Source: Bidens hawaiensis | Taxonomy: Eukaryota; Streptophyta; Magnoliopsida; Asterales; Asteraceae | Reading direction: 5' to 3' | NCBI GenBank assembly: GCA_021521415.1 | Contig: JAIQDT010005445.1 | Location: 62,001-126,000, forward strand | Length of the DNA: 64,000 nucleotides | Shown: in pieces, positions 16,379 to 59,271 of the stretch | How the letters are laid out: each line of letters begins with the position of its first letter | How positions within the stretch are numbered: position 1 is the stretch's first letter | The notes under the pieces: model-generated | What the model was told of the DNA's origin: nothing | Databases searched by the model: none | The model's input: only the letters and a program-made list of their open reading frames with translations | Made by a program: the position numbers and the translations under genes

Positions 16379-17468
16379 TGTCGGTCCTCCACTTTCGTAA
16401 TCCACACCGTGAGGTGTTGACAAGATAGGTTAACGACTTGCTATTTTAAGGTAAGAAAGATATCGTGTCATTGGAGGAATCTCTAACAATATATGTATTG
16501 CATGAAAATACAAAAGTAAACAAAACACAGACTGCTGCTCAAAAGATTTCCGTTTATAGTAATATCAATACAAGCGAGAATCGATTAGGGTTACAGAAAC
16601 GACATTTGTATGGTCGTATTAAAAGGGCGGCCGTCAATATCAATGTTAGGAATAATATGTCTACGTCCATCGCTTTTTAAGCATGCCCTAATTATTCCTT
16701 ATATAGGCCTACCTGACAGCTGTCATTCCTTCTAGTAACCCTAATTAATGAAACGTATTCAGTAAATCCTATTACAAAATGTTCTAAGTGAAAAATAGGT
16801 CTTCGGGTAGGATTTGGAGCCTTTATCTTCTTCAAGTAGACCTGGTAACCAAAGTGTGATGGGGAACAATTCTCCGAGTAGACTTTACTTAGAATATTTT
16901 CCTTAGAAAATATTCACATACCAGACTTCAATCTTCTTAACCATAGCAAACTTTGCCCGATATGATCTAACAAGCAAACTTGTTCTTCAGAGATCCCTTC
17001 AAATCATTGTTAAAGAATAAATTGATTAGCAAACATAAATGTGTTGGTAACACTCTGGAGGTGTGCTGGTGGCACTGAAGCTTGCTTGGAGTTGAACCTT
17101 GCCCGGAAAGTCCTTAAGATAATTATTTATCAACATTCTTCAAGCTTACTCAGACCGCTGTTTATTAATGAATACCTTACTAGATCTTCCAAAATACTTG
17201 GCTTCAAAGGCTTGGTTAGCCAAGAGCTTACTCGGAAGCAAACCTTGCTTGCTATGAAGAACAACCTTACTAGACATAGTGAACCCTGCTCGGATAGTCA
17301 CTAAAGAAGACTTCAAGAATATAACTTTGCCGGGAAGGCAAAATACCTTGTTAGGCTTAAGTAAAAGCTTGCTCGGATGTCCAAGTGTGCCCGATGTTCA
17401 TACTTAGCCATTTTCAGGGAGGTTGAGAAGATTCCAATCTTCCTTTAATCCATTTTCTCATCCCAACA
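16379..17468 (-). repeat. 3' LTR of E1
   Basis: 1090 bp; on the minus strand it begins TGTTGGGATGAG (17468) and ends GGAGGACCGACA (16379). It lacks 23-24 bases present near the U5 end of the right LTR and differs at many single bases. A TATA box (minus TATATAAGG) lies at 16697-16706. About 14 degenerate copies of a (C/T)CGRGYAAGS motif, seen on the plus strand as CTTGCCCGG/CTTACTCGG forms, fill U3 from 16850 to 17440. Confidence 0.9.
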
Positions 17469-17485
17469 GTCTCCCCCTAGATTGG
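17469..17485 (-). other. Polypurine tract of E1
   Basis: Minus strand CCAATCTAGGGGGAGAC, directly before the 3' LTR. The same upstream sequence in E2 stops within this tract at the rearranged junction at 57066. Confidence 0.85.
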
Positions 17486-20700: not shown

Positions 20701-22476
20701 ACATTCTTTTTTAAAATTATATCCTGAGCATCATAGTTTTGCTCTCATCCATCTGAGGCATCTCCTTCATAACCATCATCATCAGTCATTCTCTCATCAC
20801 TATCATCATCAATGTCACCGTACACATTCAATAATGTTTTCAAAGCATCTTCATCATTCACTACTTCATTCACCATCTCCTCATCAACGATATTAACATT
20901 AGTAGTGGCCACTAGAATATTCTCCCCATGTTTTGGTACAGCTGAGACCTTCTCAACCTCAGCCTCCAGGGCTTGAATTTTCTGTAAAACTTGGGCCAAC
21001 TGATCTTTTAATTCCATATTTTCCTTCAACAGTTCCTCATATGTCCCCCTCAGATCAACATTCTCTACCAGCAAATTCATGTTAAGTCTGAAAAGATAAT
21101 CATTTGTAGAAGGTGTTTGAATAGGCAGGTCAAGAAAGGGATCAGGTATTTCAATTTCGGTTTGGGTATGTTTAGTGGGTGGGCTAGGTCTTTGGATTAT
21201 ATTTTCACTGTTAGATGGTAAAGGATTTAGTGTTTGGATTAGGGGTGTAGTTGTAGTTTGAACAATTTCAAAGGTTTGTGAATGGGTTGGGGATTAGAAT
21301 GGGGTGTTTGGAAAGTTTAGTAAGTGGGCTGGGACATGCTGTGGGATATAAGGCTCATGGAAAACTTGATCTTGGTTTTGTATAAGGGTTTGGGTTTCTG
21401 TGATTGGTTGGTCAATTATTTGATCTTGGTTTTCAGGTGAGCTTTGGGTATGGGAAGGTTTTGTTTGGTTGGGTGGGGATTGGATAATTGGTTCATATTT
21501 TGGTGGTGGGAAAGGTGGTGTTGCTGGTGGTGTAGGTAGTACAGGTATATTCTCCCCCTGAGCTTGTGCATCATCATCAACATTTCCTCCAACTCCTCCT
21601 GCATCTCCTTCTTCTCCATCGTCTCCATCAGAATCATCATAATCATCATCCATTTCCTCATCTACCTCTTCCTCCTCAGAGGTTAACTCTGGAACAGGCA
21701 TATAGACACATCATGGTTGAGAAACCATAGTAAGATAACAAATTCAACTTCTGGATTAAAACGACTTGTGCTTGATAATTTAGCAATCCTCTTGTACGTA
21801 TTAGGATTCTGTAGTACATGAGTTGTTCCCATCGTAGGCAAATCTTGTAACACACGGTTAAAGATAATTTTGAGAAATCTTGGGTAAGCAAAGAATTTTT
21901 CTCTGTTGGGCTTTTTCAAGATGCTCACCATTCCTTCAAATATCATCTTCGAAAAATTGAATGGTAGATCATATACAATAGCAACGGTTTCATTAGCCAA
22001 ATCACGTCTCATAAGGGTCCATGATCCTTTACGAGGGACATACGCTTGAATTATGTGATGAATCAAAAACCTATACAGGTTTGGGAACATGCCCTTCTGA
22101 AATTGTCCTTCCTTGACATTCCCCTGATAACCCATTGTCTGTATGAGTATCTTCAATAGATGATCAGTTGTAAAGTGTATTGGGTTATGTTAATCGTCAT
22201 GTAACTGTAGACTTTGTCGAATTAGTCGTTCAGTAATCCTTACTTCATGAGTAGCCACGGTAGCCTCCAATCTTCTGCCATTTTGATCATCATAAAGTGT
22301 GGATGACTGCCATAAATCCAAGTGGTGGTGTTTGTATATTGTAGGGCATTCTGTCAAAGAGAAATGAAGATTAGATCATTGGTGTCATCTACCTCCTCAT
22401 TGTCTAGAGTCACTTGTAAAAGAGCGCATATATTGTGTTTTTCCTCAAACGGATATGTCGGTTCATCATCCGCCAT
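17721..22476 (-). pseudogene. E1 third ORF ('envelope-like' position), broken
   Basis: Minus-strand coding sequence after pol, starting at an ATG at 22476 that lies two bases after a consensus 3' splice site. It survives as pieces in several frames, with best segments at 21683-22156, 21294-21701, 20745-21080, 19688-20161, 18666-19445 and 17721-18569. The first part matches the N-terminal domain of the E3 third ORF (a YPRF motif after an LPF-F-S-K-M-like stretch). The middle is acidic and proline-rich, then charged coiled-coil-like. Several basic clusters resemble nuclear signals (for example TRKRCR and KKRAKK near 19850-19900). I see no signal peptide or membrane segment. Several stops and frame changes make it a pseudogene. 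Its biochemical role is unknown. Confidence 0.75.
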
Positions 22477-22478
22477 AT

Positions 22479-22705
22479 CTGTGCAAACAAAACCAAAAAC
22501 ACATTCAAGGCAAAGATTAGTTATAAAGTTCATAACTTTGAATAGATTTAGGTTATAATTTGAAGAAGAAAGAGAAGAAATGTCTTTTTGAACCTGTGCT
22601 TCGACAAATTAGTAACCTACACATAAAATAGAGAGTTAGTTTAAATGAAAATTAACTGCCCAAATCCATACAATCGGTGTCAAAAATCAATCAATTAATG
22701 CTTAC
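22479..22705 (-). promoter_or_regulatory. Candidate 5'-leader intron before the E1 third ORF
   Basis: On the minus strand a donor-like CTCG|GTAAGC lies at 22706/22705. A strong acceptor (TTTGGTTTTGTTTGCACAG) ends at 22479, two bases before the ATG. A CT-rich tract (CTCTCTCTTTCC and CTCTCTTTCTCTCGC) lies between the TATA box and the donor, like an ordinary plant 5' leader. Splicing is inferred; no transcript evidence is available here. Confidence 0.5.
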
Positions 22706-22848
22706 CGAGTCGGAATTATAGGGCTGGTTAATTAGGGTTTAGAAAAATAATTAAGGCGGTTAGTATTCTGGAAGCGAGAGAAAGAGAGCAAGTGTACTGT
22801 AGTGGAAAGAGAGAGAAGTGGATAATATGAAAAATTTCTCTAACTCCC

Positions 22849-22857
22849 TTTTTTATA
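22849..22857 (-). promoter_or_regulatory. Candidate internal TATA box of E1
   Basis: Minus strand TATAAAAAA lies about 380 bases upstream of the third ORF start and about 90 bases downstream of the motif array at 22950-23935. It could drive the third ORF independently of the LTR. Confidence 0.5.
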
Positions 22858-22949
22858 CCTTTTGAAAGTGGGTTTTAAATGCTTTTTGTCGTTTAGTGAG
22901 TAAATAGCTGTTAAACAATAACATTATCCAAGTAAATATCCTTTCAAAT

Positions 22950-23935
22950 AAAACCTTGCCCGATAATGTATTCCCATTTAAAATCTTGCTCGTTAAAGCA
23001 TATTGTTGTAAACCTTACTCGAAAAGTTTATTCACTTAAGTTTGCTAGGTTAACATATTTTAACAACCTTGCTCGTTCCAGAATTTGTTCAGAAATTATA
23101 AAGTTAAAAATAAATCTAAAAGAAATAAATGAAGGAAGCTTACTCGAAATACAAGATTGCTATAGAGTTAAATCACAAGATAAATAATCACGTATAAAGC
23201 ATCAAATAGGCAACCTTGCTAGGAATCAATTAAGATGCCCAAAATAACATCTTAGAAATATATCTAATTATCAACTTTGCTCGAATAGCTGAACATATCA
23301 TAAACCTTACCCGAAAGTGTAAAACAGTTAACAAATATTCATTCAAGTTCATTTACACTCACAAAGGTGTACCCGAAACAATTTTAGAATTGCAAAGTGT
23401 GCTACAGAAGATTAGTTTATCCAAAGATGTAAAAGTATGCTCTAAACACAAAGTGTACTCGTAAACATGAATAAGTCATTTAAGCACATACATAATCATC
23501 AAGCTTGCCCGGATATCTCAAACAGTTAAATAAAACAACAAGGTTTGCTAGAATTGCCTAAAATATCAAAGCTTGCTAGGGTAAGTCAAATATCTTAGAA
23601 AACACCTAAGTTTGCTAGAATAACTTGAACTTGTCAAAGCTTGCTAGAAATAGCATAAACAACTATAAAGTTTGCTAGAATGAACTAAAAATCCTATAAA
23701 ATAGTTAAGTTTGCTAGAAAATTCAGAAATCACCTAAGCTTACTCGAGATAACATATTCACACATATTCAAATTTCAAGCTTGCCCGAAGGAGTTAAACT
23801 GCTACTAAAATTATTTAAGTCTACCCGAAAATATGTCAAAACATCAAAGCATGCCCGAAATGATTAAACTTAGACAAAATCATCTAAGTTTGCCCGATAA
23901 GGTTGAAATTCATCAACCTTACTGGAAACTACATA
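22950..23935 (-). repeat. Motif array upstream of E1 third ORF
   Basis: About 26 degenerate copies of a short motif occur here. Plus-strand forms are CCTTGCCCGATAA, CTTGCTCG, GCTTACTCGA and GTTTGCTAGAA; minus-strand consensus is roughly (T/C)CGRGYAAGSTT. Copies are spaced about 30-50 bases apart with no other pattern between them. The same motif fills U3 of both E1 LTRs. Confidence 0.75.
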
Positions 23936-23989: not shown

Positions 23990-25080
23990 AAAGATTTATC
24001 ATTAACATTTAATGTTTAAGAGCAAATGGTGCATTAAGAGGTTAAATTTCAGTTATCTTTCCTTTCAATTCTTTTTGAAAAGATCTCAACATGGGACCAT
24101 ATTGACTAAGTTGCTTCTCAATACTTCATTCTCAACATTATTATGACAGTTTAGACAGGTCAACAGTTGGTCTAGACTTAGCATGAATTTCATTTCTTTG
24201 GTGATATAATTAAGCTTCAATTAAGATGCAAAAGACTAAATGGATAACACATATTGCTTTCTGATGCTCCATATCTATTCTCAAGGCTTATTTGGCTTTC
24301 TCCATGTCACCCTGAATTGACTCCAAACCCCAGATATATAGTCAAAAATTTAATGACATAATAGTCTAAAGATTCAGATATTTCTTTTCAAGTTTTACAA
24401 CATATGTGAGGTTGAACGTTGGACTAACAGGCCACGCAAGTCGGACTTACAGGCCTTTCATTCAGAATGTTTAAAGAACTTATATGATTGCCTCCGCCCA
24501 TATAGTTCTAGAATTAACCCTCATGTTTGCATTTTTCTTTATAAAAATTTATGAACACATATCAACTTTTGGTTGAGTAAATATTTAAAATAGTTTAGTT
24601 CACATTTGTTCATTGTCATTCTCAAAGATATTTCATTTTTTGGTGAGCAAATACCAACGGGCTCGTGTATGACTGGAAATACACTTTTATGCCCATCATT
24701 CAAAAAGATGTATATTGGAACATGCATAGACAACAATGTAACTCCACATTAAGTTTAGCAGTTTCTTTATGTTTATATCACCTTAGATTTTACACATCAC
24801 GGGAAAAGCAACCATACATGTCAATGACTGCACTAAGTGTCATTTTAGCCTATTAAATCCATATGATTGGCCAAATAGTCAATGTACTATCATTTCCCAA
24901 AAGGTTGGATCAATTTTCATTGAAAACCTTTCTTTTTAAGCTTCTACAAAGCTTGAACTGAATAATATTATCATGTCTCAACACCATATAACAACTTGCT
25001 CTGTTTTGTCAAAAATGTTAAAATTCATTTGAGCCTCGAATTTTGACACAAAAGCATATTTTGACACTAACAGATGGTGA
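23990..25080 (-). other. Conserved noncoding block between pol and third ORF (E1)
   Basis: No ORF of note. On the minus strand it aligns by eye with 40200-41500 of E2 and, more distantly, 50880-51780 of E3. Anchors include CAGTCATACACGAGCC (24660-24675), AAAGCCAAATAAGC (near 24285-24300), and a GGGAAATGATAGTACATTGA stretch near 24880-24900. Compared with E2 it lacks a segment of about 290 bases carrying two hairpin repeats. Confidence 0.7.
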
Positions 25081-31505: not shown

Positions 31506-32753
31506 TGTTGGGTCAAGAATTTGACCCAAATAAGGAGATTTGACCTAAACAAGGAATATGGAAGATTGGAATCTTCTCAACCTCCTCAGAAACTGCTAAG
31601 TATTGAATCCGAGCACACCTTGGACCTTCGAGTAAGCTTTTACTTAGCCGAGTACGAGATTTTGCCTTCCGAGCAAGGTTTACTTCAAATAGTCTTCTTA
31701 AGTGGATATCCGAGCAAGGTATGCTTTTTAGTGATTTCCCGAGTAAGGATCATTGATTTGGCATATCCGAGCAAGGTTCACTTTGTCAAGCAGGGTTGTT
31801 CTTCAAGACCAAGTATTTTACTCTTCCGAGTAAGGTATGGTCAACCAAGTCCAAGAAGCCAAGTAATTGGAAGACCGGGCAAGGTATTCTTTAATAATTA
31901 TGGTCCGAATATACTTGATGAGTTAATAGAATATCTCTAAGTTATTTCGAGTAAGGTTCTGCTCAAGTAAGGTATGTACTCCCGAGTACGCCTTATCAAT
32001 AAGTTGTTCAACTGACAATGAGCCGAACAGGACCATAGAAGGACAAGGTTGCTCGTAAGGATTTGTCGGGCAAAGTTTGATAAGTCCAAGAAGATTGAAG
32101 TCTACTCGGTGAATATTTTACTTGGTAAAATATTCTTTAAGTAAAGTCTACCCGGAAACTGATTCCGGGTACACTTCTATGTTTACCAAGTCTGAAGGAA
32201 GGCCGAGTACACTGCGTACTCGGAGACTGAAGATTAATGAAAAGCCTACCCGGAAGACTTGTTTTACACTTAGTTTTATTTTTGAATATGTAATTTGAAT
32301 ATGTATTATCGGATAGGGTTTCTAGAAGGAATGACAGCTGTCTTAGGTTGGCAGGCCTATAAATAGAATATTTAGGGCACGCCGCCAAACAGACACAAAA
32401 AGAAAAGAGGAGAAGCAGAACACACAATACAGATAAGACTGACTCATTTATTGAGAGAATATTGTGTGACGGCTGTCTTAGGATTCCTAGAAAACCCTAA
32501 ATCGATTATCCTTTTGTATGATTAACATTATATAAATGGAAATCTTTTGAGTGAATCCTGTGTTTGCCTTCTGTCCCTGAATATTCATTGCAACCGTATG
32601 TTTGTTATTGATTCCGCCTTTAACAAACGGTCATCTTTCTAAATATAGCAACCCGTCATTAACTCTCTTGTCAACACGATTAATTTTGTGTGAGTTATGA
32701 CATGATTGATTAAAATCCGAGCCGAATCGAACATAATTAAGTGGGACCAGACA
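31506..32753 (+). repeat. 5' LTR of E2
   Basis: 1248 bp, starting TGTTGGGTCAAG and ending GGACCAGACA. The TATA box CTATAAATAG is at 32357-32366. About 18 copies of a motif like TCCGAGCAAGGTTT or TTCGAGTAAGGT lie at 31609-32260, upstream of the TATA box. No 3' partner exists in the window, so the ends come from the terminal bases, the primer site and the E1 junction. Confidence 0.82.
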
Positions 32754-36642: not shown

Positions 36643-37498
36643 TGAAATTTCTCTATGTGCAGGAATAGGCCACTCCATTGAATGACATATGGTATATGGA
36701 TAGTGGTTGTTCTAGGCACATGACTTGTGACAAGAGGTCACTTGTGAACTATGAAGAGAAATATGAAAGTCCTGTTGCCTTTGGGAGTGATGAAAATGGT
36801 GGAAAGATTGTGGGAAAAGGAATCTTGAGAAATGAAAAGGTGTCATTTGATAATGTGTTTCATGTTGAGGGACTTCAATACAATCTTCTGAGCATATCAC
36901 AGATGTGTGATAAAGGTTACAAAGTTAGTTTTGATGACTCTCATTGCTTCATCTTAAAACCTGAATTTGTGATTCCACCTGAGATGATTATGATGATGGC
37001 ACCCAGAAATGGCAACTTATATGAGTTAAATATGAAAGAAGCTATTTCAAGAGGTGGTGCATGTTTTGTTTCCAAAGCCACTGAAAATGAATCAAAATTA
37101 TGGCATAGGAAATTGTGTCATGTACACTTAAAGAACATGAATAGACTGGTCAAGGGTGAACATGTGATTGGCTTACCTACAAGAGAATTTAAGTTTGATG
37201 ATCACTGTGATTCATGTCAAAAGGGAAAGCAACACAAGTCTACTCATAAGACAAAGCTCATCAACTCAATTGATCAACCACTTGAGTTACTTCACATGGA
37301 TCTTTTTGGTCCTGTTAGTGTGCCAAGTATTGGAAAGAAAAGATACTGTTTGGTGATCATTGATGACTATTCTAGATATACTTGGGACTATTTCCTAAGT
37401 ACCAAGGATGAGTCTGCTGAGTTGATTATGGGTTGTGTTACAATGATTTAGAACAAGCTGAATAAGAAAGTCAAAATGATGAGAAGTGACAATGGTAC
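36642..37498 (+). pseudogene. E2 pol, protease to first part of integrase
   Basis: The pol frame is open from an ATG at 36642 that overlaps the gag stop, is interrupted by TAG at 36666-36668, then runs to a TAG at 37449-37451. Protease has WYMDSGCSRHMTC (near 36690), the pre-integrase region has LWHRKLCHVH and CDSCQKGKQH, and the integrase core begins with LHMDLFGPVSV and IIDDYSRYTW. The frame continues after the TAG to RSDNGT and is then cut at 37495-37498 (GTAC), where inverted E1 gag sequence begins. A pyrimidine-rich tract ending TGTGCAG|GA at 36662 resembles a 3' splice site at the gag-pol boundary. Confidence 0.85.
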
Positions 37499-37794
37499 AT
37501 TGCCTTTGTTATCTGATGGTGAGCAACATTAGTGAGGATTTCCCAAGACAAACCACGTTTCAACATGGCCAACTCTCTATCATCCATCTTCTTCATTCGT
37601 GCTTCAACAATATTATTACTGTTAGTTACTTTAGCAGGTGCCATTTAAGGTCCGTTTTTTATAAAGGTCCACATTTCAACATCATTATAACAAACAGCAG
37701 CCTCAAAGAGTACCTTCCACTTAATGAAATTCTTCTGTCAATACAACCTAGGTATCTTGTTAGTAGACACTTCCTGCTCCTCGTAACCAGACAT
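37499..37794 (-). pseudogene. Inverted gag N-terminal fragment, copy 1
   Basis: Minus-strand gag start of E1 type: ATG at 37792-37794, then MSGYEEQEVSTNKIPRLYGQ, closely similar to the E2 gag start at 33055. It covers about 100 codons with one internal stop and ends at the GTAC junction with pol. Plus-strand open frames over the same bases are antisense shadows. Confidence 0.82.
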
Positions 37795-38136
37795 ATTTTT
37801 GTATTTTTTTAAAATAAAATAAAATTAATGACAAAAATTGAAAAACTTAAACAAAAATCTTAGATTTCTTTTGAAGAACAATCAGATCTGTGGATATAAT
37901 CCGCAGATCTGATGTATCTGGTCAAGTAAGAGCAAGATCTCAAATAAGAATTCAAACATTAATATAAATGAGAGGCAGAAAACACCAAAGATTGTAGATC
38001 TGGAAGAAAAACATAGTTGTTCACGTCACGTATTAATGAAATAGTGCTTCAGCTTACGTCACTCTTCATCTTCAAATCTTCACTAACAAGCAATAATTCT
38101 TTACCCAAATAGCAGGACACAAGCTCTCATGCCACT

Positions 38137-38739
38137 TGTCGGTCCTCCACAATAACGATCGATTCACCACTGTCGTAACCCACACCGTGAGGTGTTAACA
38201 AGATAGGTTAACGACTTGCTATTTTAAGGTAAGAAAGATATTGTGTCAATGGCGGAATCACTAACACTATATGTATTTCTTGAAATTACAAAAGTAAACA
38301 AAACACAAACTGTTACTCAAAAGATTTCCATTTATAGTAATATCAACACAAACAGGAATCGATTAGGTTTACAGAAAGGGAATGTTTTGTCAGGTCGTAT
38401 TAAAAGGGCGACCGTCAATATCAATGTCAGGAATAATATATCTACGTCCGTCTCTTTTAAAGAATGCCCTAATTATTCCTTATATAGTCCTATCTAACAG
38501 CTTTCATTCCTTCTAGAAACCATAATTAATGAAGCGTATTCAGTAAATCCTATTACAAAATGTTCTAAGTAAAAAACAGGTCTTCGGGTAGGCTTTGGAG
38601 CCTTTGTCTTCTTCAAGTAGACTTGGTAACCAAAGTGTGTTGGGGAAAAATTCTCCGGGTATACTTTACTTAGAATATTTTCCTTAGAAAATATTCACCT
38701 AGCAGACTTCAATCTTCTTGACCATAGCAAACTTTGCCC
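38137..38739 (-). repeat. Partial E1-type LTR, copy 1
   Basis: First 603 bases (U5 side, plus-strand left end) of the LTR found complete at 58158-59271, almost identical to it. It breaks off after CTTTGCCC and joins the E2 reverse transcriptase at 38740. A plus-strand open frame at 38243-38497 recurs in all three LTR copies and is not called a gene. Confidence 0.85.
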
Positions 38740-40199: not shown

Positions 40200-41500
40200 T
40201 TGCATAAATACTATATTTTGGTCAAAACATGAGCAAGTTGATTAATGGTGTAGAGATATGATAAGATTATTCAGTTCAAGCTTTCAAGAAGCTTAAAAGA
40301 AGGATTTTTTTTTAAAAGGAAATGTCTCAAGTAGTTATTTTTGCTGAAAATTATGTCATTTGCCCAGTTGGAAGGACATGCACTTGTGTATGTTTGGTCC
40401 TCAAATCTCTATAGATTCGAAGGATAGCCATTGACCTGAAAACTGAATGCATTTGGGGCAATTATGACTTGTTTCTTATTTCTTCACTTAAAACTATGTC
40501 AATAACTCTGACTTTGACAGGACATATATTCACATGTATGTTTGGTCCTGTTGACCACTTTAGGTCAAAACAGGATAGCCATTAACCTGATAAGAAAGAG
40601 ATATTGGGGTGATTGAATATTAAACTGTATTTAATGGGAAATGATAGTACATTGACTACTTAGCTGATCATATGGAATTAATAGGCTAAAAAGACCTTAG
40701 TATAGTCATTGACATGTATGGTTGCTTTCCCATGATGATGTAAATCTAAGGTGATATAAACATAATGAATATGCTAATCTTTATGTGGAGATGCATAGTT
40801 GTTTTGCATGTCTCAAGATAGATCTCTCCGAATGATACGGCTGAAAAGTGATTACCCAGTCATACACGAGCCTGTTGTTATTTGGTCAACCAAAATGAAA
40901 CATTTTTAAATATGACAAAGAACATGCTTTAAGAAAATTTGAGAAAATATCAAAAACAAGGGGAAGAATGAATAAATCAACCAAAAGTTGATAAGTGTTT
41001 TAAATATTTTATCAAACAAGAGGGTTACAACAAGAACTACAAAGATGCTGGCAAAATCTGTCTCATCTTGAATGAAAGGCATGTTGCTAACTGTAAGTCC
41101 AACGTTCAACCTCTATATATGTTTGAATCTAAAAATACAAAAATACAATAAATTCTGTCATACAAAAAAAACTATTTTTGACCAAATACAGGAGGTTGGA
41201 GTCAAATTGGGGTGATCAGGGGAAAGCCAAATAAGCTTTGAGAAGAGATATGAGGCATCATAGCACAGTGTTGACCATTATTACATTATGCTCAAATTGA
41301 ACTTTAATCATATCACCAAAGAAATGAAAATCATGCTAAGTTTATACCTGCTGTTAACCTATCTAAGTTGTCATAATAATGCTGAGAGTGAAGTAATGAG
41401 ATAGCTACTTAGTCAATATGATCCCATTCCTGAGATCTTTTCAGTTTAATAAAGATATTGTTTTGAAATGAATTATAACTGAAATTTGATCTCTAAATGC
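40200..41500 (+). other. Conserved noncoding block between pol and third ORF (E2)
   Basis: No long ORF. It shares anchors with E1 and E3: CAGTCATACACGAGCC at 40857-40872, GGGAAAGCCAAATAAGCTTT near 41220-41240, and a GAAATTTGATC stretch near 41480. It also holds two copies of a hairpin-plus-motif unit at 40371-40464 and 40516-40614. Each has an inverted AGGAC...GTCCT pair, then GGATAGCCATTRACCTGA, then a GGGGYRATT end. Confidence 0.75.
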
Positions 41501-41599: not shown

Positions 41600-42600
41600 G
41601 TTGAATATGTAAGTTAGAGTAAGGTTTGATGCTTTATAACCTTCTCGAGCACAAACTGTTTGAATATGCATTTTCGGGTAAGGTTTGAAAATTCTCAAAC
41701 TTTCCGAGTAAGATTAGTCATGTTTGACTTGTTTATGTGTGAATATGTTGTTTCGGGTAAGGTTTGATAATTTTCAAACTTTCCAAGTAAGCTTAGTCAT
41801 TTCTGACTAACTTTATGATTTTCGAGCATGCTTTGAAGTGTTTACACTTTTCGGGTAGAGTACACTGTTGCACTCATTTTCCCGAGTAAGCTTGAAGTCT
41901 TGAGATGATTATGTGTTGAAATAGCTATCTTTTAACAAGAAATTCTTGTTTCGAGCAAGCTATGCATGTTATATGCTAGTTTCGAGTAAGCTATGCATGT
42001 TATATGCTGATTGTGTTTCCAAGCAAACTTTGTGAACTTAAGTGAGTACACCGAGTAAGCTTTGTGTGAATATGTTGTTAGGAAAGACTTATTAATCTTT
42101 CTGGGCACGCTTAGATGTTACTGTTTAAGTTTGTCATTTTTCGGGTATGGTTTGAAATGTTGAGTTTCCTCGAGCAAGGGAATACCTTATGATTGAATGT
42201 GTTTATCCTAGCGAGCTTAGTGCTAACTTAGGATTTTCGAGCAAGCTCTATGAAATTTTAGACTATAGCACACTTAAATGTTTATGTGTTTAAGTTCATT
42301 CCTAGCATGCTCTGTGATATGTGTGTTTATGATTTCTTTGAAATTACAAGTGTTTTCGAGCAAACTTTGTTTTCGGAGCACACTTTATGTTTCGGGTACA
42401 CTTGTGTTCCTTCAATATACTTGGTAATTTCAAACTTTAACTTTCCGAGTAAACTGTCTGCTAGAATTTCTTTTCGAGCACACTTTGTATTATATGAAAG
42501 TTATTCATGTATACTTTACATAAGATTGTTGTCCGAGCACACTTTTCATTTGAAAGAGTGCTCGAGCACACTATGTATACAAGCATACTTGAATGAATGC
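41600..42600 (+). repeat. Motif array upstream of E2 third ORF
   Basis: About 29 degenerate copies of a short motif occur at 20-50-base spacing, for example TTCGGGTAAGGTTTGA, TTCGAGCAAGCT, CCGAGTAAGCTTTG and TTCGAGCACACTTTG. This is the same motif as in U3 of the E2 LTR at 31609-32260 and as in E1. Between the array and the ATG at 43127 a pyrimidine-rich acceptor-like TTTGTGTTTTTGTGCAG ends at 43000, and a TATA-like TCTATATAA is at 43003-43011. Confidence 0.75.
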
Positions 42601-43622: not shown

Positions 43623-44046
43623 TGTTGGTGCATAGATGTCAGTAGTTCATAGTCTAGTGTCTGTAATCGAGTCTGTAATGTTATTTATGTTTTTGTTTAA
43701 GCGAAGTTGTTAACAAGTTCGCCTAGGCGAACTTGTTGAACAAGCGAAGTTATGGACAACTTCGCCTGAACATATCAGGCGAAGTTGTCGTGTATTTATA
43801 TACAAGCTTACGGCTTGGTTTAGGGTTAATCAGTTGGTTAAGAAGTTAGTCGTTTGAGTCGATCGAGTCGACGAGAGTCTGTATCAGTGATTCATATCAC
43901 GTGAGTTCGGTTATTAATATATAACGTGTTTCGGTTTACTCGTGTGTGTTTGTTTGTTTTGCTTTCTACGCTCGTAACGATCTACGCAGGGATTCCGCAC
44001 CTGAGTAGACCGAGATATCTCGTGTGATCCGTCCAGGGAACCTACA
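43623..44046 (+). repeat. 5' LTR of E3
   Basis: 424 bp, TGTTGGTGCATAG...GGGAACCTACA. Palindromic GCGAAGTT/AACTTCGC units fill 43700-43790 immediately upstream of a TATA-like TATTTATATAC (43793-43803). Confidence 0.95.
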
Positions 44047-44048
44047 AT

Positions 44049-44063
44049 TGGTATCAGAGCATT
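44049..44063 (+). other. Primer binding site of E3
   Basis: TGGTATCAGAGCATT, two bases after the LTR; a good match to the initiator tRNA-Met site. Confidence 0.85.
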
Positions 44064-44247
44064 TGCTCGATTGTGTGGTTCGGGATATTCACGCGGGTGT
44101 AAAAATCGTCCCGTTTCGACTATTCGCGGGACGTGTTTTCTGTGTTTTTGATCATTCTTACCTCCTACCATAGTGTTCAAGCCTTTACACCGTCAAAAAC
44201 CTCGTTAAAATCCGATTTACAGATCTGCAGAAACTTCGTGTTCATCA

Positions 44248-44504
44248 GGCGAAGTTGCCGTCACTGTTCGTAGGGTTTCGGCGAAGATATAAGGTTAAGC
44301 GAAGTTATCCACAACTTCACCTACCTTCTCAAGTTCGCCTAATTCAAGCGAAGTTCTCTACAACTTCGCCTACCTCTTAAGTTCGCTTACCTCAAGCGAA
44401 GTTAAGAATCAGCGAAGTTAATCAGCAGTGTTATCAGCGGAGTTCTTCAGCGAAGTTCTCTACAACTTCGCCTACTTCAAGCGAAGTTATCCGTAACTTC
44501 GCCT
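44248..44504 (+). repeat. GCGAAGTT palindrome array in E3 leader
   Basis: About a dozen half-sites GCGAAGTT or AACTTCGC occur, several paired as inverted repeats 5-8 bases apart (for example GCGAAGTTCTCTACAACTTCGC twice in shortened form and GCGAAGTTATCCGTAACTTCGC-like units). They lie in the untranslated leader between the primer site and gag. Confidence 0.85.
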
Positions 44505-44566
44505 ACAGTACTTTAATAAAAAAAAAAAATTTCTTAATTTTTCACGTTTCTTACTTTTCGGGAAAG

Positions 44567-50100: not shown

Positions 50101-50510
50101 CTGGAGGATGTCAGTTTCTTGGTGGCAGATTGGTGTCGTGGCAATGCAAGAAACAGACTTCGGTCGCAATTTCAACCTGTGAAGCAGAATACATGGCAGC
50201 ATCCAACTGCTGCTCCCAGGTTCTTTGGATTCAACAACAGTTGCGCGACTATGGTCTGAATTTCTTACTTACACCTATTTGCATTGATAACACAGCTGCT
50301 ATCTCAGTAACTAACAATCCCGTGAAACACAGTAAAACTAAACATATTGACATACGTCATCATTTTATACGGGATTGTGCTGAGAAGAAACTGATTGTGC
50401 TTGAAAAGGTGGATACCCTTGATAATTTCGCTGATTTATATACTAAAGCGTTTGACAAAACGAGATTTCAAAACCTTATTGAGTTGAATGGGATGATCAA
50501 TCCCGAGTAA
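47182..50510 (+). pseudogene. E3 pol, one stop and one frameshift
   Basis: Pol is in the -1 frame relative to gag, open from 47182 with no ATG near its start. Protease has WVVDSGCSRHMTG (near 47240). Pre-integrase follows (LWHRRMGHIH, CIACKKGKQH). Integrase has LHMDLFGP, SDNGTEF and QQNGVAERKNRT. A TGA at 48172-48174 interrupts it in frame. Near 49090-49110 the frame shifts by one base step at the start of reverse transcriptase. The last part (49098-50510) is open, with VYVDDIIFA (near 49563) and RNase H (YTDSDYGGC, HSKTKHIDIRHHF). A splice-acceptor-like TTTTGCTTTATTGTGCAG ends at 47208, so pol could be made from a spliced RNA or by frameshifting. Confidence 0.9.
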
Positions 50511-50525
50511 CCATGCTTTTCAAGT

Positions 50526-50567
<42 letters not shown>

Positions 50568-51800
50568 CTATCGCTTAAAAGTATGTCGGTTACCACAGTT
50601 TGAAGGACATGTCTTAGGATATGTTTGGTCCTCAACTCTACTTGTAGATTTTGAGGATAGCCATTAACCAGATGACTGAAAGTGACCGGGGCGGTTTATG
50701 ATGAGTTTTCATTTTTTCGCTTAAAATTAGTCGATCATATTAATTAGTTAGAAGGACACATACTAGTATGTGGTCGGTCCAGCTGATCCATTGGATCTTC
50801 GGGATAGCCGTTTACCTGAAGACTTTGTTTTGGTCGGGGCGATTAATGTTAAAATTTTTTTTGGGGAAATGAAATTATTTTTCAAGTCTACTACTTCGTA
50901 AGAAGTTCGTTAGCTTTGTTTAACAGAAAATTGATCCAACCTTGGAAAATGATAGATATACTGATTCTGTGTGCTTAACTAGTAAAGTTATTAGGCTTAA
51001 AAGGCTTTAGGACACTCATTGTATGTCATGGTAACTTTTTATGGTGCGTAAAAGTATATGTGATACAAACTAAAACTACTTGATTTTACGTGGAAACTCC
51101 TTACGAGTTTTGCATGTCTTCATATATATCTTTCCGAATGATAGGCAGAAAAGCGATTACCCAGTCATACACGAGCCCGTAAGTGTTCTGATTCACGTGA
51201 AGATAGCGTTTCAAGAAACTGCAGTGATCCAGATTCGGGACTTGCAGTTGTTTACTACTCTGAAGTCTATATGAATGTATGAAAAAAAAAAAAAAAAAAA
51301 AAAAAAAACAACTTATGAGTTATTGAAACATTCTAGAGTTCAAACTATCAAGACTTCTTAATCATGGAGTAAGAAAGAGAAAGGGAAGGAGATGAAGAGT
51401 AATAACAAACTTAATCAGACACTAAGGGTCGAAGTCAATTCGGGGTGACTTGGGGAAAGCCAAATACGCTTTGAGAATAGATAGGAGGCATCATAATCTC
51501 TGAGTTGTTGCCCACTTAAATTTTGAGGCTTAATTGAACCTAACTCGTATCACAGAAACGATGAAAACCATCTTAAGTTATTTACCTGCTTACAACCTGT
51601 CTCTATATGTCATAATACAGCTAAACACGGATCTATGTGACAGTCACGTAGTTAGTATGATTCCTGTTCGGATCGTTTCTAAAACGTAGTAGTCCCTATC
51701 GAGACTGAAATTTGATCCCTTATACTTTAATGGTTAAAGTTTTCTTTTTATGTAGTTGTTTGCTTTTATAAATGGTTACTTGGACTTGATCGTGTTATTT
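50511..51800 (+). other. Conserved noncoding block between pol and third ORF (E3)
   Basis: No ORF. Two A-tracts (about 34 A at 50530-50563 and about 27 A at 51282-51308) frame the middle part. It shares anchors with E2 and E1: CAGTCATACACGAGCC at 51162-51177 and GGGGAAAGCCAAATACGCTT near 51450-51470. Two hairpin-plus-motif units (50602-50699 and 50751-50845) match those of E2, with conserved AGGAC...GTCC pairing although loop sequence differs. Confidence 0.75.
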
Positions 51801-51810
51801 AATTCTTAAA

Positions 51811-51816
51811 GGTAAG
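51811..51816 (+). promoter_or_regulatory. Consensus 5' splice site before E3 third ORF
   Basis: AAAG|GTAAGT is a full plant donor consensus. Paired with the acceptor at 52606 it would remove a 795-base intron holding the palindrome array and internal TATA box. Use is inferred. Confidence 0.4.
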
Positions 51817-51870
51817 TTTTAAAACAAAATTGCAAAATGTTCAAATTATAAGGGTTGATTTTGTAAATAT

Positions 51871-52560
51871 AGGCGATGTTGTTAAACAGGCGAACTTGTG
51901 AATAACTTCGCCTAGGCGAAGTTAACCGTAACTTCGCATGTATAACTTCGCCCCTATATAAGGATTTTCAAAGGTCATCAGTTCATTATTTGAAATATCA
52001 GCGAACTTATCCTCGATTCACACAGCGAACTTATATCCGATTTTCATCTGATTTTCTTTCTTCGATTTCAAACCGATTTAAAGGTTGGTTGGGTCATTAC
52101 ATCGTGTTATCTGTTCTTTGACGTTAATCTAAGGTTGTTTCAATAACCGGTTGATAACCTCGGCCGATCGATCCTTAAACCCGATTTCAAACCTAGTTTT
52201 CACGTGGTCATGTACAACCTGGTCGTCTAGTTATCCTTAAAAACTTGTGTTTCAGAGTCCTTAATCTCCAAAATCGTTAAATTCGCCAACGGCACGTCGT
52301 TCGAAATCCTTACTGTCGCCGATTCAGATTCAGGCGAACTTAAGGTTTAGGCGAAGTTATCCGTAACTTCGCCTGAGTCTAAACTTCGCCTGAGGCGATG
52401 TTGTGGTGAGGCGAAGTTATCATTAACTTCGCCTGGACCTTTTAATTTTTTAATTTTTAGACGAACTTAAAGATGAAGCGAAGTTGTTCCCAACTTCGCC
52501 TCAACTTTAACTTCGCCTATACAAAAGTTATCACAACTTCGCTCATGGTGATAAGCGAAC
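51871..52560 (+). repeat. GCGAAGTT palindrome array upstream of E3 third ORF
   Basis: About 20 half-sites of GCGAA(G/C)TT or AACTTCGC occur in two clusters, 51871-51950 and 52330-52560, with two more near 51999 and 52024. Several form inverted pairs such as GGCGAAGTTATCCGTAACTT. The same motif is in the E3 LTR and leader. Confidence 0.85.
51954..51963 (+). promoter_or_regulatory. Candidate internal TATA box of E3
   Basis: CTATATAAGG lies five bases after the first palindrome cluster, mirroring the E3 LTR, where the TATA box follows the same palindromes. It lies 655 bases before the third ORF ATG. Confidence 0.55.
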
Positions 52561-52588
52561 TTGTGTTAAACCTTAACGTATATCTAAC

Positions 52589-52606
52589 TTGGTTCGTTTG
52601 TTGCAG
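52589..52606 (+). promoter_or_regulatory. Consensus 3' splice site two bases before E3 third ORF
   Basis: TTGGTTCGTTTGTTGCAG|AT precedes the ATG at 52609. The same arrangement (TTTGTTTGCACAG|AT-ATG) precedes the E1 third ORF. Confidence 0.5.
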
Positions 52607-52608
52607 AT

Positions 52609-55530
52609 ATGGCTACAGTAGCAGGTGCTGGAGGTGCTGGAGGTGACGATGGAGATAATCTGAGACAATTCTTCCCGGGTCACAACATGTTCATCACCTT
52701 AGACCCGGAAGCGAGTGGTGTGGAGGATTACCGTGAGATCATCACATTCCTCATTCGCTCGAGGATATTCCACGCTATCACGACGACTCTGCCGATATCC
52801 TTACCCAATATCGAGGATTTCTGGCAGAATGTGGAGTACGATTGCCGCGTTGAGCCCCCGGTTATGCGAGCAACTGTCAACAACCAAGAAGTTCAGTTCT
52901 CGTCTGAACAAATACGGGTGGCGTTGCGATTCGGTGAGGAGACTAGGAATGACCCTACAGAGTTTGTTGCTCCGTTTCGCGATGGAGCATTTCTAAGAAT
53001 GGGCTATTCTGGTCCATTGGGCGATACCCAGAGACGGAAGGGGTTCCTGCTCGATCAGTGGCGCTTCCTCATGCACGTCATGATTGTGTGTATGTCTGGG
53101 AGGAAGGCGGGTACTGACGGAATGGGTGCGACCATGCAGTCTGCCATGACTGCTCTGACTTATAACAAACGTTATAGCTTTAGTCAGATGGTCTTTTACC
53201 AGATCGACAGACAGAGGAGGGCGATGGCTCGTGAGCGGTTCATAATGTATCCAAGATTCATCCAGATGATCTTGAACCATGTGGCTCCAAATTTGCCACA
53301 ACGATGCCCAATAAGATACGTGGAGAGTGTGAGCAAACGTATCTTTGCTCAATGCCGTACTTCGAGTGCGAGGAGCAAGCCTGAACGTCGTCCAAGGCAT
53401 ACTCCACTCTTTGGGTTCTTAATAAACCCGGGGTATGTGCCAGCTCGAGGGGATGAGTTCAGAGACCCTCAACCACAACAGGCAGGAGCAACTAGAGATG
53501 TACCTACTGTGCCTGTGGTGTCGGCTGAGGAGGATGTAGACCTTGATGCTGCATTTGGCGGCCAAGGATTCTTCGACATGGATCGTTTTGATCCACAAGA
53601 AGAGGTGCAGGTTTCTGCTGCACAGGTTCGGGAAGTGATTGTTACTAGAGCAGCTACGACGGTGGCTGACTCAGATCTTGACGAGGTTATGGATGAGGCG
53701 AGAAGGATGATGGTGAGACGAGAGAGAACGTTAGGGAAGAGAAAGAGGACGGTGGATGATAGTGAGTCAGAAGAAGAAGAAGAAGATATCCACAAGCTGA
53801 TTAGACGATCAAGACGTGAAAGGACAGGTGCAGGTATGGGAGCTGGAGAGACTTCAAGAGTTGTACGGTTCGCTCCATCCGCACTGTCAGGTATGTCGAT
53901 TGTTCCTACTTCTGTACAGGTTACAAGCGCCGCGGATGTTCCTGTAGTGGCTACATCAGCTGTCGGCATCCCATCCATCACACTACAGACGACGACTCCG
54001 GAGATTGTGTCGTTACCACCTCCAACGCTTACTCCTTCAGAGGTGGTGGCACAATTTGTAGAGTCTACCGTCGTTGCAACTGCAGGGTTGTCGGTCACGA
54101 TACCACCTGCGGTTACGTCCACAACTGCTTCTGATGTCCCGGTTACATTCGAGATCCCGGCTGAGTATACTCAAGATACATCTAACATGAGGTTTGATTT
54201 CGATGCAACCCTCTCAGACTCGGAGAGAATAGCTGCACTTGAACAGGTCGTGGCAGAGCAATCGAGGATAAACTTTATCCAGACCCAGGCTATTCAGCGC
54301 CTTGTAGCAGAGAATCAATTACAGTCGTCCCTCCTGGTTGAACATGGGAGAATTATAGATGCTATGAAGGAGTTCTTGGCATCTCAGGGGGAGACAGGCT
54401 GTAGAGGCGACGAGTTAAGGACGAAGAAGAGAAATGACAGAGACGATGATCCAAATGCACCGAAAGGTGCAGGTGGTGAGTTGCCAAGAACTACTCAAGC
54501 TCTTGGGACTTCCACAGCTCAGGGGGAGTCTGCAGGTGCAGTTGGTGGTGATGAGGTGGTGATGGTTGATGATGAAGATGATGTGATCGATGCGTTGAAA
54601 GAATTGGATGATGATATGCTAGAGGATGATGTGATGTTTGATGATGATGTGCTGCCTATTGAGGAGATTGAGAAGATTGGAGCACAGATTGTGATTGAAG
54701 ATGAGATTGAAGAAGGTGAAATAATTGAAGAAAATGTTGAACACGAGATCCCAGATGTTGAGAACGCCGATATGGGTACTGAGATGGAAAATGATGAGAC
54801 TGAGTGGGAGGAGCAGCCTAGGTGGAAGGAAGGCTGTGCTCATTGGTTTATTAAAACTAAGAAGCCTGCTGTTCCAACCATGTTCAAGAAGAGTTATAAT
54901 ATCAAAGGCTATGCAGAGTCGAAGAAAGGAATTATTTGTTGGCTATATGATGAACAGATAAGGTTGTTTGTGGTGAAACATTTTGATGGGATTCAGTATT
55001 TTAAAAGAACGTTGAGATCTCTCAATACATTGCCGGAATGTGAGGTGAAGGATTTGGCTAGATTGGGGCTGATCAATAGAAGCGACGATAACATGGCAAG
55101 GGTTATTGGGAAGATCGTGTGGAAAGAAAGCATAAAAGAGAAGAAGTTTGAGTTATTAAAGCCACAGAAGGGAAAGCTAGTGGAAGATAAAGAAAGGGGG
55201 ATGAGAGCAGATGGCAAGCCATGGATGGTAATGAAGTATAAACCGATTCGATGCATTAAGGAGGTTCCAATGAAGATTATGCCTCAAGATGTGTTGAAGA
55301 ATCTTAAATGGTGGTATGTTGATTGCCAGACTGCTGAAGCCGTGATGGAAGACGAAGACGAACAAGAAGTGCTGAGGGTATATGATCCGATGCATCTTGT
55401 TAACTTATCGAAAGCTGATCTGCAAGTGTTGAATGAAAAGAAGATATTCTATATTCCTGCTTGGAAAGACGAAGCGAGGAAGTATCAGCGAGTAGTCACG
55501 GTATGTGTTAGAGAAGGAGTGCATGCGTGA
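52609..55530 (+). CDS. E3 third ORF ('envelope-like' position), intact, 973 aa
   Basis: Open frame from ATG 52609 to TGA 55530. The N-terminal domain (residues about 15-280) is shared with E1 and contains a MYPRFIQMILNHV-type motif. A threonine/valine-rich middle follows. A basic, acidic and basic cluster (GKRKR at about 376-380, then ESEEEEED, then RRSRRER at about 398) resembles a nuclear signal. A coiled-coil-like region is at about 536-600, a strongly acidic stretch at about 650-730, and a conserved-looking C-terminal domain at about 735-973 (CWLYDEQIRLFVVKHFDG, WKDEARKY). I see no signal peptide or membrane segment, so an envelope role is not supported by sequence; the label is positional. 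Function unknown. It is the best-preserved of the three third ORFs. Confidence 0.85.
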   Translation: MATVAGAGGAGGDDGDNLRQFFPGHNMFITLDPEASGVEDYREIITFLIRSRIFHAITTTLPISLPNIEDFWQNVEYDCRVEPPVMRATVNNQEVQFSSEQIRVALRFGEETRNDPTEFVAPFRDGAFLRMGYSGPLGDTQRRKGFLLDQWRFLMHVMIVCMSGRKAGTDGMGATMQSAMTALTYNKRYSFSQMVFYQIDRQRRAMARERFIMYPRFIQMILNHVAPNLPQRCPIRYVESVSKRIFAQCRTSSARSKPERRPRHTPLFGFLINPGYVPARGDEFRDPQPQQAGATRDVPTVPVVSAEEDVDLDAAFGGQGFFDMDRFDPQEEVQVSAAQVREVIVTRAATTVADSDLDEVMDEARRMMVRRERTLGKRKRTVDDSESEEEEEDIHKLIRRSRRERTGAGMGAGETSRVVRFAPSALSGMSIVPTSVQVTSAADVPVVATSAVGIPSITLQTTTPEIVSLPPPTLTPSEVVAQFVESTVVATAGLSVTIPPAVTSTTASDVPVTFEIPAEYTQDTSNMRFDFDATLSDSERIAALEQVVAEQSRINFIQTQAIQRLVAENQLQSSLLVEHGRIIDAMKEFLASQGETGCRGDELRTKKRNDRDDDPNAPKGAGGELPRTTQALGTSTAQGESAGAVGGDEVVMVDDEDDVIDALKELDDDMLEDDVMFDDDVLPIEEIEKIGAQIVIEDEIEEGEIIEENVEHEIPDVENADMGTEMENDETEWEEQPRWKEGCAHWFIKTKKPAVPTMFKKSYNIKGYAESKKGIICWLYDEQIRLFVVKHFDGIQYFKRTLRSLNTLPECEVKDLARLGLINRSDDNMARVIGKIVWKESIKEKKFELLKPQKGKLVEDKERGMRADGKPWMVMKYKPIRCIKEVPMKIMPQDVLKNLKWWYVDCQTAEAVMEDEDEQEVLRVYDPMHLVNLSKADLQVLNEKKIFYIPAWKDEARKYQRVVTVCVREGVHA

Positions 55531-55576
55531 AGATTACAAGACAGGTGCTTAAAGATCAAGATATGAAGCTACTGCC

Positions 55577-55587
55577 AAGGGGGAGTC
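55577..55587 (+). other. Polypurine tract of E3
   Basis: AAGGGGGAGTC abuts the 3' LTR. Confidence 0.9.
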
Positions 55588-56010
55588 TGTTGGTGCATAG
55601 ATGTCAGTAGTTCATAGTCTAGTGTCTGTAATCGAGTCTGTAATGTTATTTATGTTTTTGTTTAAGCGAAGTTGTTAACAAGTTCGCCTAGGCGAACTTG
55701 TTGAACAAGCGAAGTTATGGACAACTTCGCCTGAACATATCAGGCGAAGTTGTCGTGTATTTATATACAAGCATACGGCTTGGTTTAGGGTTATCAGTTG
55801 GTTAAGAAGTTAGTCGTTTGAGTCGATCGAGTCGACGAGAGTCTGTATCAGTGATTCATATCACGTGAGTTCGGTTATTAATATATAACGTGTTTCGGTT
55901 TATTCGTGTGTGTTTGTTTGGTTTGCTTTCTACGCTCGTAACGATCTACGCAGGGATTCCGCACCTGAGTAGACCGAGATATCTCGTGTGATCCGTCCAG
56001 GGAACCTACA
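55588..56010 (+). repeat. 3' LTR of E3
   Basis: 423-bp copy of 43623-44046, with about four differences (for example CAAGCATACGG against CAAGCTTACGG, one missing A, TTTATTCG against TTTACTCG). The target duplication TGAAG follows. Confidence 0.95.
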
Positions 56011-58157: not shown

Positions 58158-59271
58158 TGTCGGTCCTCCACAATAACAATCGATTCACCACTGTCGTAAC
58201 CCACACCGTGAGGTGTTAACAAGATAGGTTAACGACTTGCTATTTTAAGGTAAGAAAGATATTGTGTCAATGGCGGAATCACTAACACTATATGTATTTC
58301 TTGAAAATACAAAAGTAAACAAAACACAAACTGTTACTCAAAAGATTTCCATTTATAGTAATATCAACACAAACAGGAATCGATTAGGTTTACAGAAAGG
58401 GAATGTTTTGTCAGGTCGTATTAAAAGGGCGACCGTCAATATCAATGTCAGGAATAATATATCTACGTTCGTCTCTTTTAAAGAATGCCCTAATTATTCC
58501 TTATATAGGCCTATCTAACAGCTTTCATTCCTTCTAGAAACCATAATTAATGAAGCGTATTCACTAAATCCTATTACAAAATATTCTAAGTAAAAAACAG
58601 GTCTTCGGGTAGGCTTTGGAGCCTTTGTCTTCTTCAAGTAGACTTGGTAACCAAAGTGTGTTGGGGAAAAATTCTCCGGGTATACTTTACTTAGAATATT
58701 TTCCTTAGAAAATATTCACCTAGCAGACTTCAACCTTCTTGACCATAGCAAACTTTGCCCGATATGATCTAATGAGCAAACTTGTTCTTCAGAGATCCCT
58801 TCAACTCCTTGTTAAAGAATAACTTATTTAGTAAATATAATTGTGCTAGTAACACTTTAGAGGTATGCTGGTGGCATTGTAGCTTGCTCGGAGTTGAACC
58901 TTGCCCGACAAAGTTCTTAAGATAATTCTTTATCAACTTTCTTCAAGCATACTTGGACCACTGTTTATTAATGAATACCTTCCTAGATCTTCCAAATACT
59001 TGGCTTCAAAATCTTGGTTAGCCAAGAGCTAACTCGGAAGCAAACCTTGCTTGGCTATGAAGAACAACCTTGCTAGTCATAGTGAACCCTGCTCGGAGAG
59101 TCACTAAAGAAGACATCAAGAAGATAACTTTACCCGGAAGGCAAAATACCTTGCTAGGCTTAAGTAAAAGCTTGCTCGGAAGTCCAAGTGTGCCCGACGT
59201 TCATACTTAGCCATTTTCAGGGAGGTTGAGAAGATTTCAATCTTCCTTTAATCCATTTACTCATCCCAACA
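58158..59271 (-). repeat. 5' LTR of E1
   Basis: 1114 bp, minus-strand orientation, ending at the TGTTGGGATGAG terminus (59271) next to the CTTTG duplication. It is nearly identical to 38137-38739 over their shared part but clearly diverged from the left LTR at 16379-17468. TATA box (minus) at 58499-58507; CTTGCCCGG-type motif copies at 58755-59210. Confidence 0.9.

Follow-up and report, generated by a model that had tools for sequence, protein, structure and literature searches.

Why is the stretch in front of the third open reading frame (ORF) of a plant retrotransposon filled with the same short motif as its long terminal repeats (LTRs)? The question is raised by positions 22,479 to 23,935 of a 64,000-nucleotide piece of Bidens hawaiensis DNA (hereafter the window, numbered from its first letter). 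The window comes from a genome of 3.47 Gb and, according to self-BLAST, a search for primer-binding sites (PBS) and polypurine tracts, and Pfam, is plant DNA with nested Ty1/copia elements, namely E1 on the minus strand, to which the stretch belongs, and E2 and E3 on the plus strand. In our reading, an envelope-class Sirevirus probably has here a second promoter for RNA polymerase II, an internal one controlled together with the LTR. At least 40 copies of the E1 promoter region were found, of which 30, E1 included, were aligned (the copies listed are 82-91% identical to E1); the fractions in the following lines refer to this alignment.

58158..59271, minus strand: E1 5' LTR, with an array of the E1 motif in U3 and a TATA at 58507
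22950..23927, minus strand: E1 array before the third ORF, 27 TTCGRGYAARSTTNG-type sites sharing one orientation, most spacings close to a multiple of 10
22849..22857, minus strand: TATA box of the candidate internal promoter; 25/30 copies have TATAA at the site
22765..22834, minus strand: CT-rich leader, the 70-bp window (starting at 22834) with the highest C+T of the 14-kb E1 body
22617..22705, minus strand: most likely intron of the 5' untranslated region (5'UTR), GTAAGC donor at 22705 (GT in 27/30), AG at 22618-22617 (29/30)
22639-22635, minus strand: CTAAC branch-like sequence, kept in 27/30
22479..22480, minus strand: AG first taken as the acceptor, kept in only 16/30
22474..22476, minus strand: ATG of the E1 third ORF, kept in 29/30
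16379..17468, minus strand: E1 3' LTR, 15 motif sites at 17395-16763 in U3, TATATAA near 16705
31506..32355, plus strand: U3 of the E2 5' LTR, with the E1-type motif
41614..42575, plus strand: E2 array, 26 sites in the same orientation

The motif is confined to these places. An earlier note on this DNA, made from the sequence alone, had counted about 26 copies of a CGRGYAAG-type motif before the E1 third ORF; a position weight matrix (PWM) trained in place puts the count at 27 (minus strand, 23927 to 22964), and matrices trained likewise find 26 sites in the E2 array, 15 in the E1 3' U3 and 19 in the E2 U3, some of them weak. The exact form CKRGYAAR occurs 19 times forward and never in reverse in the E1 array, and exact motifs share one direction in the U3s and arrays of E1 and E2. 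The note had proposed deriving the motif from U3 alone. Learned by expectation maximisation (EM) from the E1 U3 and scored at a loose threshold, it has 24 forward and 8 reverse sites in the 1,091 bp before the ORF, versus means of 0.71 forward and 0.98 reverse (maximum 5 each) in 200 shuffles, 0 forward and 5 reverse in gag-pol (7,152 bp), and 4 in each direction downstream of the ATG (4,997 bp). Forward densities for each element's own U3 motif are 22.0 (E1) and 25.0 (E2) sites/kb in the arrays versus 0 and 0.1/kb in gag-pol; exchanging the E1 and E2 motifs still gives 18-23/kb versus 0.6-0.8/kb. With a PWM from the E1 3' U3, 500-bp bins with at least three sites are restricted to the U3s and arrays of E1 and E2 and to a duplicated LTR piece near 38.5 kb; among the remaining bins of the window, 46001-46500 has two sites and 27 have one. 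In both E1 LTRs (59271-58158 and 17468-16379, minus strand) the motif precedes a TATA, as the note had said. The GC content is 0.31 in the E1 array and 0.35 in the E2 array and, judged by it alone, neither is a CpG island.

Downstream of the E1 array, the TATA at 22857, the CT-rich tracts, the donor at 22705 and the ATG at 22476 all lie where they had first been placed, and only the acceptor ending at 22479 is doubtful. Among the 20 AGs of the region, kept in 23.3 copies on average, just two are rarer than this one; because it is so poorly kept and the AG at 22617 is found in nearly every copy, we place the intron at 22705-22617 (89 nt). A TATAWA is kept in 4/29 copies, since most copies read TATAAG. 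Over the 30 copies, ATG density is 0.58/kb in exon 1 and 20.75/kb in the remainder up to the start. An in-frame extension from an ATG at 22533 was considered as well, but is open in only 15/30 copies and thus unsafe as a start. On both strands of the 64 kb, which hold 236 TATAWA, a TATA followed by a CT-rich (at least 0.65) and ATG-free leader occurs four times, at 22857 (-), 51955 (+), 11210 (+) and 14580 (+), and 14 times if the C+T cut-off is lowered to 0.60. The composites at 11210 and 14580 sit outside the Sireviruses.

From this layout we infer the following mechanism. A host activator would bind the repeated motif at both places, the U3 of the LTR and the array ahead of the third ORF, and the two promoters would thereby answer one signal. 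Transcription would start at the internal TATA and yield a short mRNA with a CT-rich leader, from which the 5'UTR intron would be spliced out, and the third ORF would then be translated. Foamy viruses offer a system that works alike, a second, internal promoter before the accessory genes of a reverse-transcribing element, in which the element, the position of the promoter and the regulator are unrelated to those of Sireviruses.

The third ORF could instead be reached by retrovirus-like splicing of the LTR transcript, joining a donor of the 5' leader to an acceptor just ahead of the ATG, which would make the internal TATA incidental. The 5' leader of E1 (58078) and that of E2 (32825) both contain GTAAGC, as read by eye, a CTAAC...GCAG acceptor lies two bases upstream of the E3 ATG in 11/11 copies, and splice acceptors have been predicted for BAGY2 and Athila (PMC2829016). 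Such splicing nonetheless leaves the array, the TATA, the CT-rich leader and the region's own donor unexplained, and the E1 acceptor at 22479 is one that about half of the copies lack; we hold this splicing to be unlikely.

The internal promoter finds further support in the spacing of the sites. Of 83 neighbour spacings in the four arrays, 54 deviate from a multiple of 10 by at most 1 bp and 67 by at most 2 bp, and off-register spacings exist (e.g., 45, 47, 53, 55 and 57). The 79 spacings obtained with a PWM from the E2 U3 alone have R 0.558 near 10.1 bp, a value that none of 2000 jittered sets attains. The 51 spacings left after collapsing a 70-bp higher-order repeat and tandem duplicates give R 0.636 at 10.5 bp (0/5000). 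The signal is weaker after stricter de-duplication by gapped spacer similarity (39/79 spacings, best period 11.1, 19/5000 null sets as good). Taken separately, at three thresholds, Rayleigh values are 1.8e-3 to 0.04 for the E1 array, 1.2e-5 to 5.7e-5 for the E2 array and 0.011 to 0.16 for the U3s, and the 30 E1 copies together give R 0.507 at 10.1 from 453 spacings that are dependent on one another. A degenerate 10-bp tandem repeat was considered as well for the array and dropped, the masked spacers having no clear signal at lag 10 (E1 0.38 versus a mean of 0.336 and outside its six top lags; E2 0.30 versus 0.316). Since the spacers are moreover nearly as dissimilar as shuffled ones (0.328 versus 0.314 in the 27-32 bp class of E1), binding on one face of the DNA is favoured. 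Together with the confinement of the motif and the shuffles, these tests bear out the suggestion of the earlier note that the arrangement is selected and not due to chance.

A passive, functionless minisatellite, which recombination or template switching had placed in both U3 and linker, would have left local tandem duplications such as those of 67, 79 and 31 bp units, the alternation of ~30 and ~40 bp spacings in the first half of the E1 array and the likeness among its 37-41 bp spacers (0.381 versus 0.342 shuffled, standard deviation (sd) 0.018). We find this quite improbable: the motif is confined to promoter-side places, the spacers have diverged nearly to chance while their spacing was kept, and the pairing of U3 and linker recurs in families with another motif.

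The first such family is E3, compared here with 10 further plus-strand copies among at least 40 full-length places, 93-96% identical.

43623..44046, plus strand: E3 5' LTR, six exact GCGAASTT half-sites in U3, partly in 22-bp palindromes, TATA near 43797
44232..44502, plus strand: array between PBS and gag, 18 half-sites (at most one mismatch), in the 5' leader of the genomic RNA
51873..51951, plus strand: array before the internal TATA, six half-sites
51955..51960, plus strand: internal TATA, TATATAA in 11/11 copies examined
52001..52562, plus strand: second array, in the leader, 16 half-sites
52605..52606, plus strand: splice acceptor CTAAC...TTGCAG, in 11/11 copies examined
52609..55530, plus strand: third ORF, 973 amino acids (aa), open, homologous to that of E1, its ATG kept in 11/11

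Exact GCGAASTT half-sites, often in 22-bp palindromes, number 6 in the E3 5' LTR, 12 between PBS and gag and 18 before the third ORF, versus 1 in the 7,294 bp of gag-pol plus linker and 0 in the 2,962 bp of env. With EM scoring at the loose cut-off, E3 gag-pol has 11+10 sites of the E3-U3 motif versus 6.5+5.4 in shuffles (exact half-sites 0+1).

More families were reached through a 17-mer of the linker, the noncoding region between pol and the array, which occurs 15,442 times in the genome (reversed control: 0). Thirty of its loci, taken first in contig order, were classified: 23 are E3-like (at least 75%), 2 are E2-like and 5 are 62-69% like all three elements. Four of these five, 78-84% alike, form family 4, and the remaining locus (L061), with a linker 75-78% like that of family 4 and the E3 motif, is family 5. 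This single copy carries six exact GCGAASTT before the third ORF and five (at most one mismatch) in 90 bp of U3, versus one in the 2.6 kb between +1403 and +3990. Its third ORF is E3-like (65.6% over 93 aa), and with its family-4-like linker it is perhaps a recombinant. In family 4, nine GACCGAGAAC-type sites of the L037 copy, at +1315 to +1470 relative to the 17-mer, precede a third ORF homologous to that of E3 (27.9% over 197 aa, E 4e-25); in the examined parts of L047 and L065 such an array is absent, and no family 4 U3 or 3' LTR was found in 6.6 kb. Downstream of the family 4 third ORF, another locus (L066) has a satellite-like repeat of ~640 bp at +4400 to +6900. Thus the same motif stands in U3 and before the third ORF in E1, E2, E3 and family 5, all four cases in which both places can be read.

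Is the shared layout of E1 and E3, whose LTRs and motifs the note called unrelated, then a repeated invention? No LTR match between the two was found by self-BLAST, and the array of each shows no clear enrichment of the other's motif; the motif matrices themselves are at best weakly similar (81 and 229 of 2000 column permutations are as good). Homology is seen, however, both between the E1 and E3 third ORFs (28.5% over 193 aa, tblastn E 7.6e-17) and between the linkers upstream of the arrays (69-74% identical in blocks, ~60% overall between E1 and E3). The place is therefore old and inherited, with the motif changed in both places, which is co-evolution or transfer and not convergence. In E2, the third ORF sets in at what is an interior portion of the E1 third ORF (52% over 33 aa, E 1e-8) and so seems to be without its N-terminal part; a deletion would explain both this and the missing E2 promoter. 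As for the protein, the third ORF has no Pfam match even at E 5, an AlphaFold model of its N-terminal piece has no confidence (mean pLDDT 34.1), and the one relative among 7,993 scored candidate proteins is a weak one from sunflower. Viral contigs searched with the E3 third ORF and reverse transcriptase (RT) gave no relatives; three 17-mer matches in viral contigs and two in genome contigs were taken as chance, the second linker block being present in 0/5 loci.

Several observations weigh against an internal promoter with a phased array. The layout is less uniform than first claimed: no E1-like promoter follows the E2 array, only 6/22 of the E3 half-sites before env precede the TATA and 16/22 follow it, the L037 array follows the TATA at +871 (counterparts at +864 in L060 and +877 in L047), and in the family 5 copy the sole TATAWA beyond +400 occupies the expected position of the ATG. 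The order array, TATA, leader, ATG is clear only in E1 and, for those six sites, in E3. Two ATGs lie between 22617 and 22476. At a mean per-column conservation to E1 of 0.885, 11.6% of 5-bp windows match or beat TATAA and 15.5% GTAAG, so that the conservation of TATA and donor is suggestive only, and the TATA/leader composite, which arises in 24/500 (E1) and 18/500 (E3) shuffles, is by itself only moderately significant. Concerning the phasing, E1 and E2 are related and their arrays not fully independent, indels in the array among copies are multiples of 10 in only 4/19 events (13/30 copies alignable), and pooled spacers are slightly more alike than shuffled ones (0.328 versus 0.311, sd 0.007); a trace of shared descent of the spacings remains in some spacer classes.

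It is very unlikely that the repeats act in RNA, through packaging, stability or silencing: they are one-directional in E1 and E2 (19 versus 0) and present twice in the genomic RNA, many sites of E3 and family 4 lie in the presumed transcribed leader, and the E2 array has more short stems than expected (at least 6 bp, 13 versus 6.3; 3/100 shuffles), as have the U3s (E1 3' U3, 9 versus 4.6; E2 U3, stems of at least 8, 4 versus 0.3) and, strongly, E3, but the helical spacing speaks against it, the E1 array has no stem excess (4 versus 8.0 in shuffles) and the E3 sites are palindromic and non-directional. A hairpin as the unit of the E1 and E2 arrays was likewise dropped, as there is no excess in the E1 array and only a mild one in the E2 array and U3s.

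An RNA feature of another kind precedes the candidate promoter. The linker, which has stops in all frames, is predicted to form an RNA foldback on the sense strand, conserved and with compensatory changes among E1, E2, E3 and two further groups, in a region that contains the 17-mer.

24101..24883, minus strand: E1 linker foldback, arms 24883-24644 and 24344-24101
40651..41417, plus strand: E2 linker foldback, arms 40651-40888 and 41179-41417
50960..51656, plus strand: E3 linker foldback, arms 50960-51193 and 51412-51656

RNAalifold gives the linker alignment -93.5 kcal/mol versus -46.2 (sd 6.0) in 60 column shuffles that preserve the conservation pattern (z -7.85); the control, an alignment of RT and ribonuclease H, has z 0.07, and the antisense strand of the linker reaches -61.5 only. 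In the 120 long-range pairs, 91.7% of cells can pair versus 35-41% when slid, with 28 double changes versus 2-5, measured on the alignment from which the structure itself was derived. Families 4 and 5 were left out of that derivation. Pairs changed on both sides relative to E2 are kept in 16/18 (L037), 15/18 (L060), 11/16 (L047), 9/14 (L065) and 14/18 (L061) cases, versus 30-40% when slid; pairs changed on one side (12/34, 14/33, 15/37, 16/42 and 16/36, respectively) are kept hardly above the slid level of 35-40%. Aligned alone, L037, L060 and L061 yield z -3.98, and 62/121 long pairs match the projected ones. Single-sequence folds are less clear: the minimum-energy folds of E1, E2 and E3 contain 62, 90 and 11 of the 120 pairs, and their stability z values are -2.3, -3.5 and -0.2. 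An Rfam search at the gathering score gave no matches. Upstream of the foldback, the linker holds a duplicated GGTCC...GGATAGCC block (E2 40387-40442 and 40535-40593; E3 50597-50677 and 50746-50824), for which a structure test is not significant (z -1.29), and the E3 linker has poly-A runs of 33 (50532-50564) and 27 (51282-51308).

The foldback would be present in the genomic RNA and absent from the mRNA of the internal promoter. This allows a tentative extension of the internal-promoter reading: two promoters might be run by an interchangeable, helically phased activator code that turns over jointly in both places, with the genomic RNA, and not the third-gene mRNA, marked by a foldback of ~700-780 nt. 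If so, the foldback just upstream of the internal promoter would be an export, packaging or identity element with a role comparable to that of a retroviral transport element. The joint turnover of motifs at two places of one element amounts to a natural experiment in promoter co-evolution. The exact coordinates of TATA, leader, intron and array in two families make the internal promoter directly testable.

Part of this picture is known. Boxes shared by the LTR and the region before the third gene have been on record for Sireviruses since 2010, when, in the sections drawn on here, Bousios et al. described repeated-motif (RM) boxes in LTRs and, for 77/79 of the linker copies in their set, before ENV, and suggested a role in regulation (PMC2829016). 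The proposal that the third gene has an internal promoter dates from 2002 and gained support in 2010, with no such promoter conclusively identified according to the same sections (PMC2829016); the parts used of MASiVEdb 2012 name it, with stop-codon suppression, among expression mechanisms credited to earlier work (PMC3414828). The E1 motif resembles the RM boxes in being element-specific, with many copies in U3 before the TATA and another group of them on the 5' side of the third gene. RM boxes as described there (PMC2829016) are palindromes, all but one with a CGG-CCG core, and linked to CpG islands, whereas the E1/E2 motif is directional, lies in DNA of 31-40% GC and is phased at ~10 bp. 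The E3 motif is a palindrome, yet its core is GCGAASTT and not CGG-CCG, and family 4, with CGGTCAA...TTGACCG, resembles the RM boxes by eye. Soybean SIRE1, where env is expressed by stop-codon suppression (PMC2829016), is of the same genus and has its third ORF downstream of pol; here, in contrast, a linker of more than 2 kb with an array and a candidate promoter comes before it. A word search of the 2010 paper returned no spacing rule, intron or linker foldback, the inverted repeats mentioned there being at the gag/pol boundary and the polypurine tract (PMC2829016), and the titles and abstract openings of the Sirevirus papers searched held no further report of an internal promoter, a spliced envelope or an RNA structure. 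New are the one-directional motif spaced at ~10-10.5 bp, the concrete candidates for TATA, leader and intron, which the text of the 2010 paper seen here does not place, and the related families with other motifs; for the conserved linker foldback, the literature searched at that depth held no earlier description.

The assignment to the Sirevirus genus of Ty1/copia follows from the gag/RT, polypurine tract, PBS and gag size of the elements. Retrotran_gag_2 is found in E2 and E3 and RVT_2 in E1 and E3, the RT scan covering E1 and E3; in E2, integrase domains were matched. The E3 gag is large, 873 aa with a zf-CCHC zinc knuckle. The tract AGGGGGAG adjoins the 3' LTR within ~10 bp in E1 and E3 (55578), with further copies at 18943, 21552, 54386 and 54521, and 10 in the whole window versus 0.64 in shuffles.

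17471..17478, minus strand: E1 polypurine tract AGGGGGAG

The PBS pattern used is initiator-tRNA-like, and a match follows each 5' LTR directly, exact in E3 (44049), with one mismatch in E2 and two in E1; its six matches in the window are not above chance (22/100 shuffles). E1 is flanked by a CAAAG target-site duplication, and its LTRs are ~90.5% identical by self-BLAST. E2, with its 5' LTR from 31506, is inserted in the E1 gag, and its 3' LTR was not found in the window; E3 (43623-56010), with LTRs 99% identical and the target-site duplication TGAAG, is inserted in the E2 third ORF. Finally, 37047-38739 and 57067-58760 are 99% identical copies of a junction between E2 pol and the inverted E1 5' end, which looks like the result of rearrangement or gene conversion.
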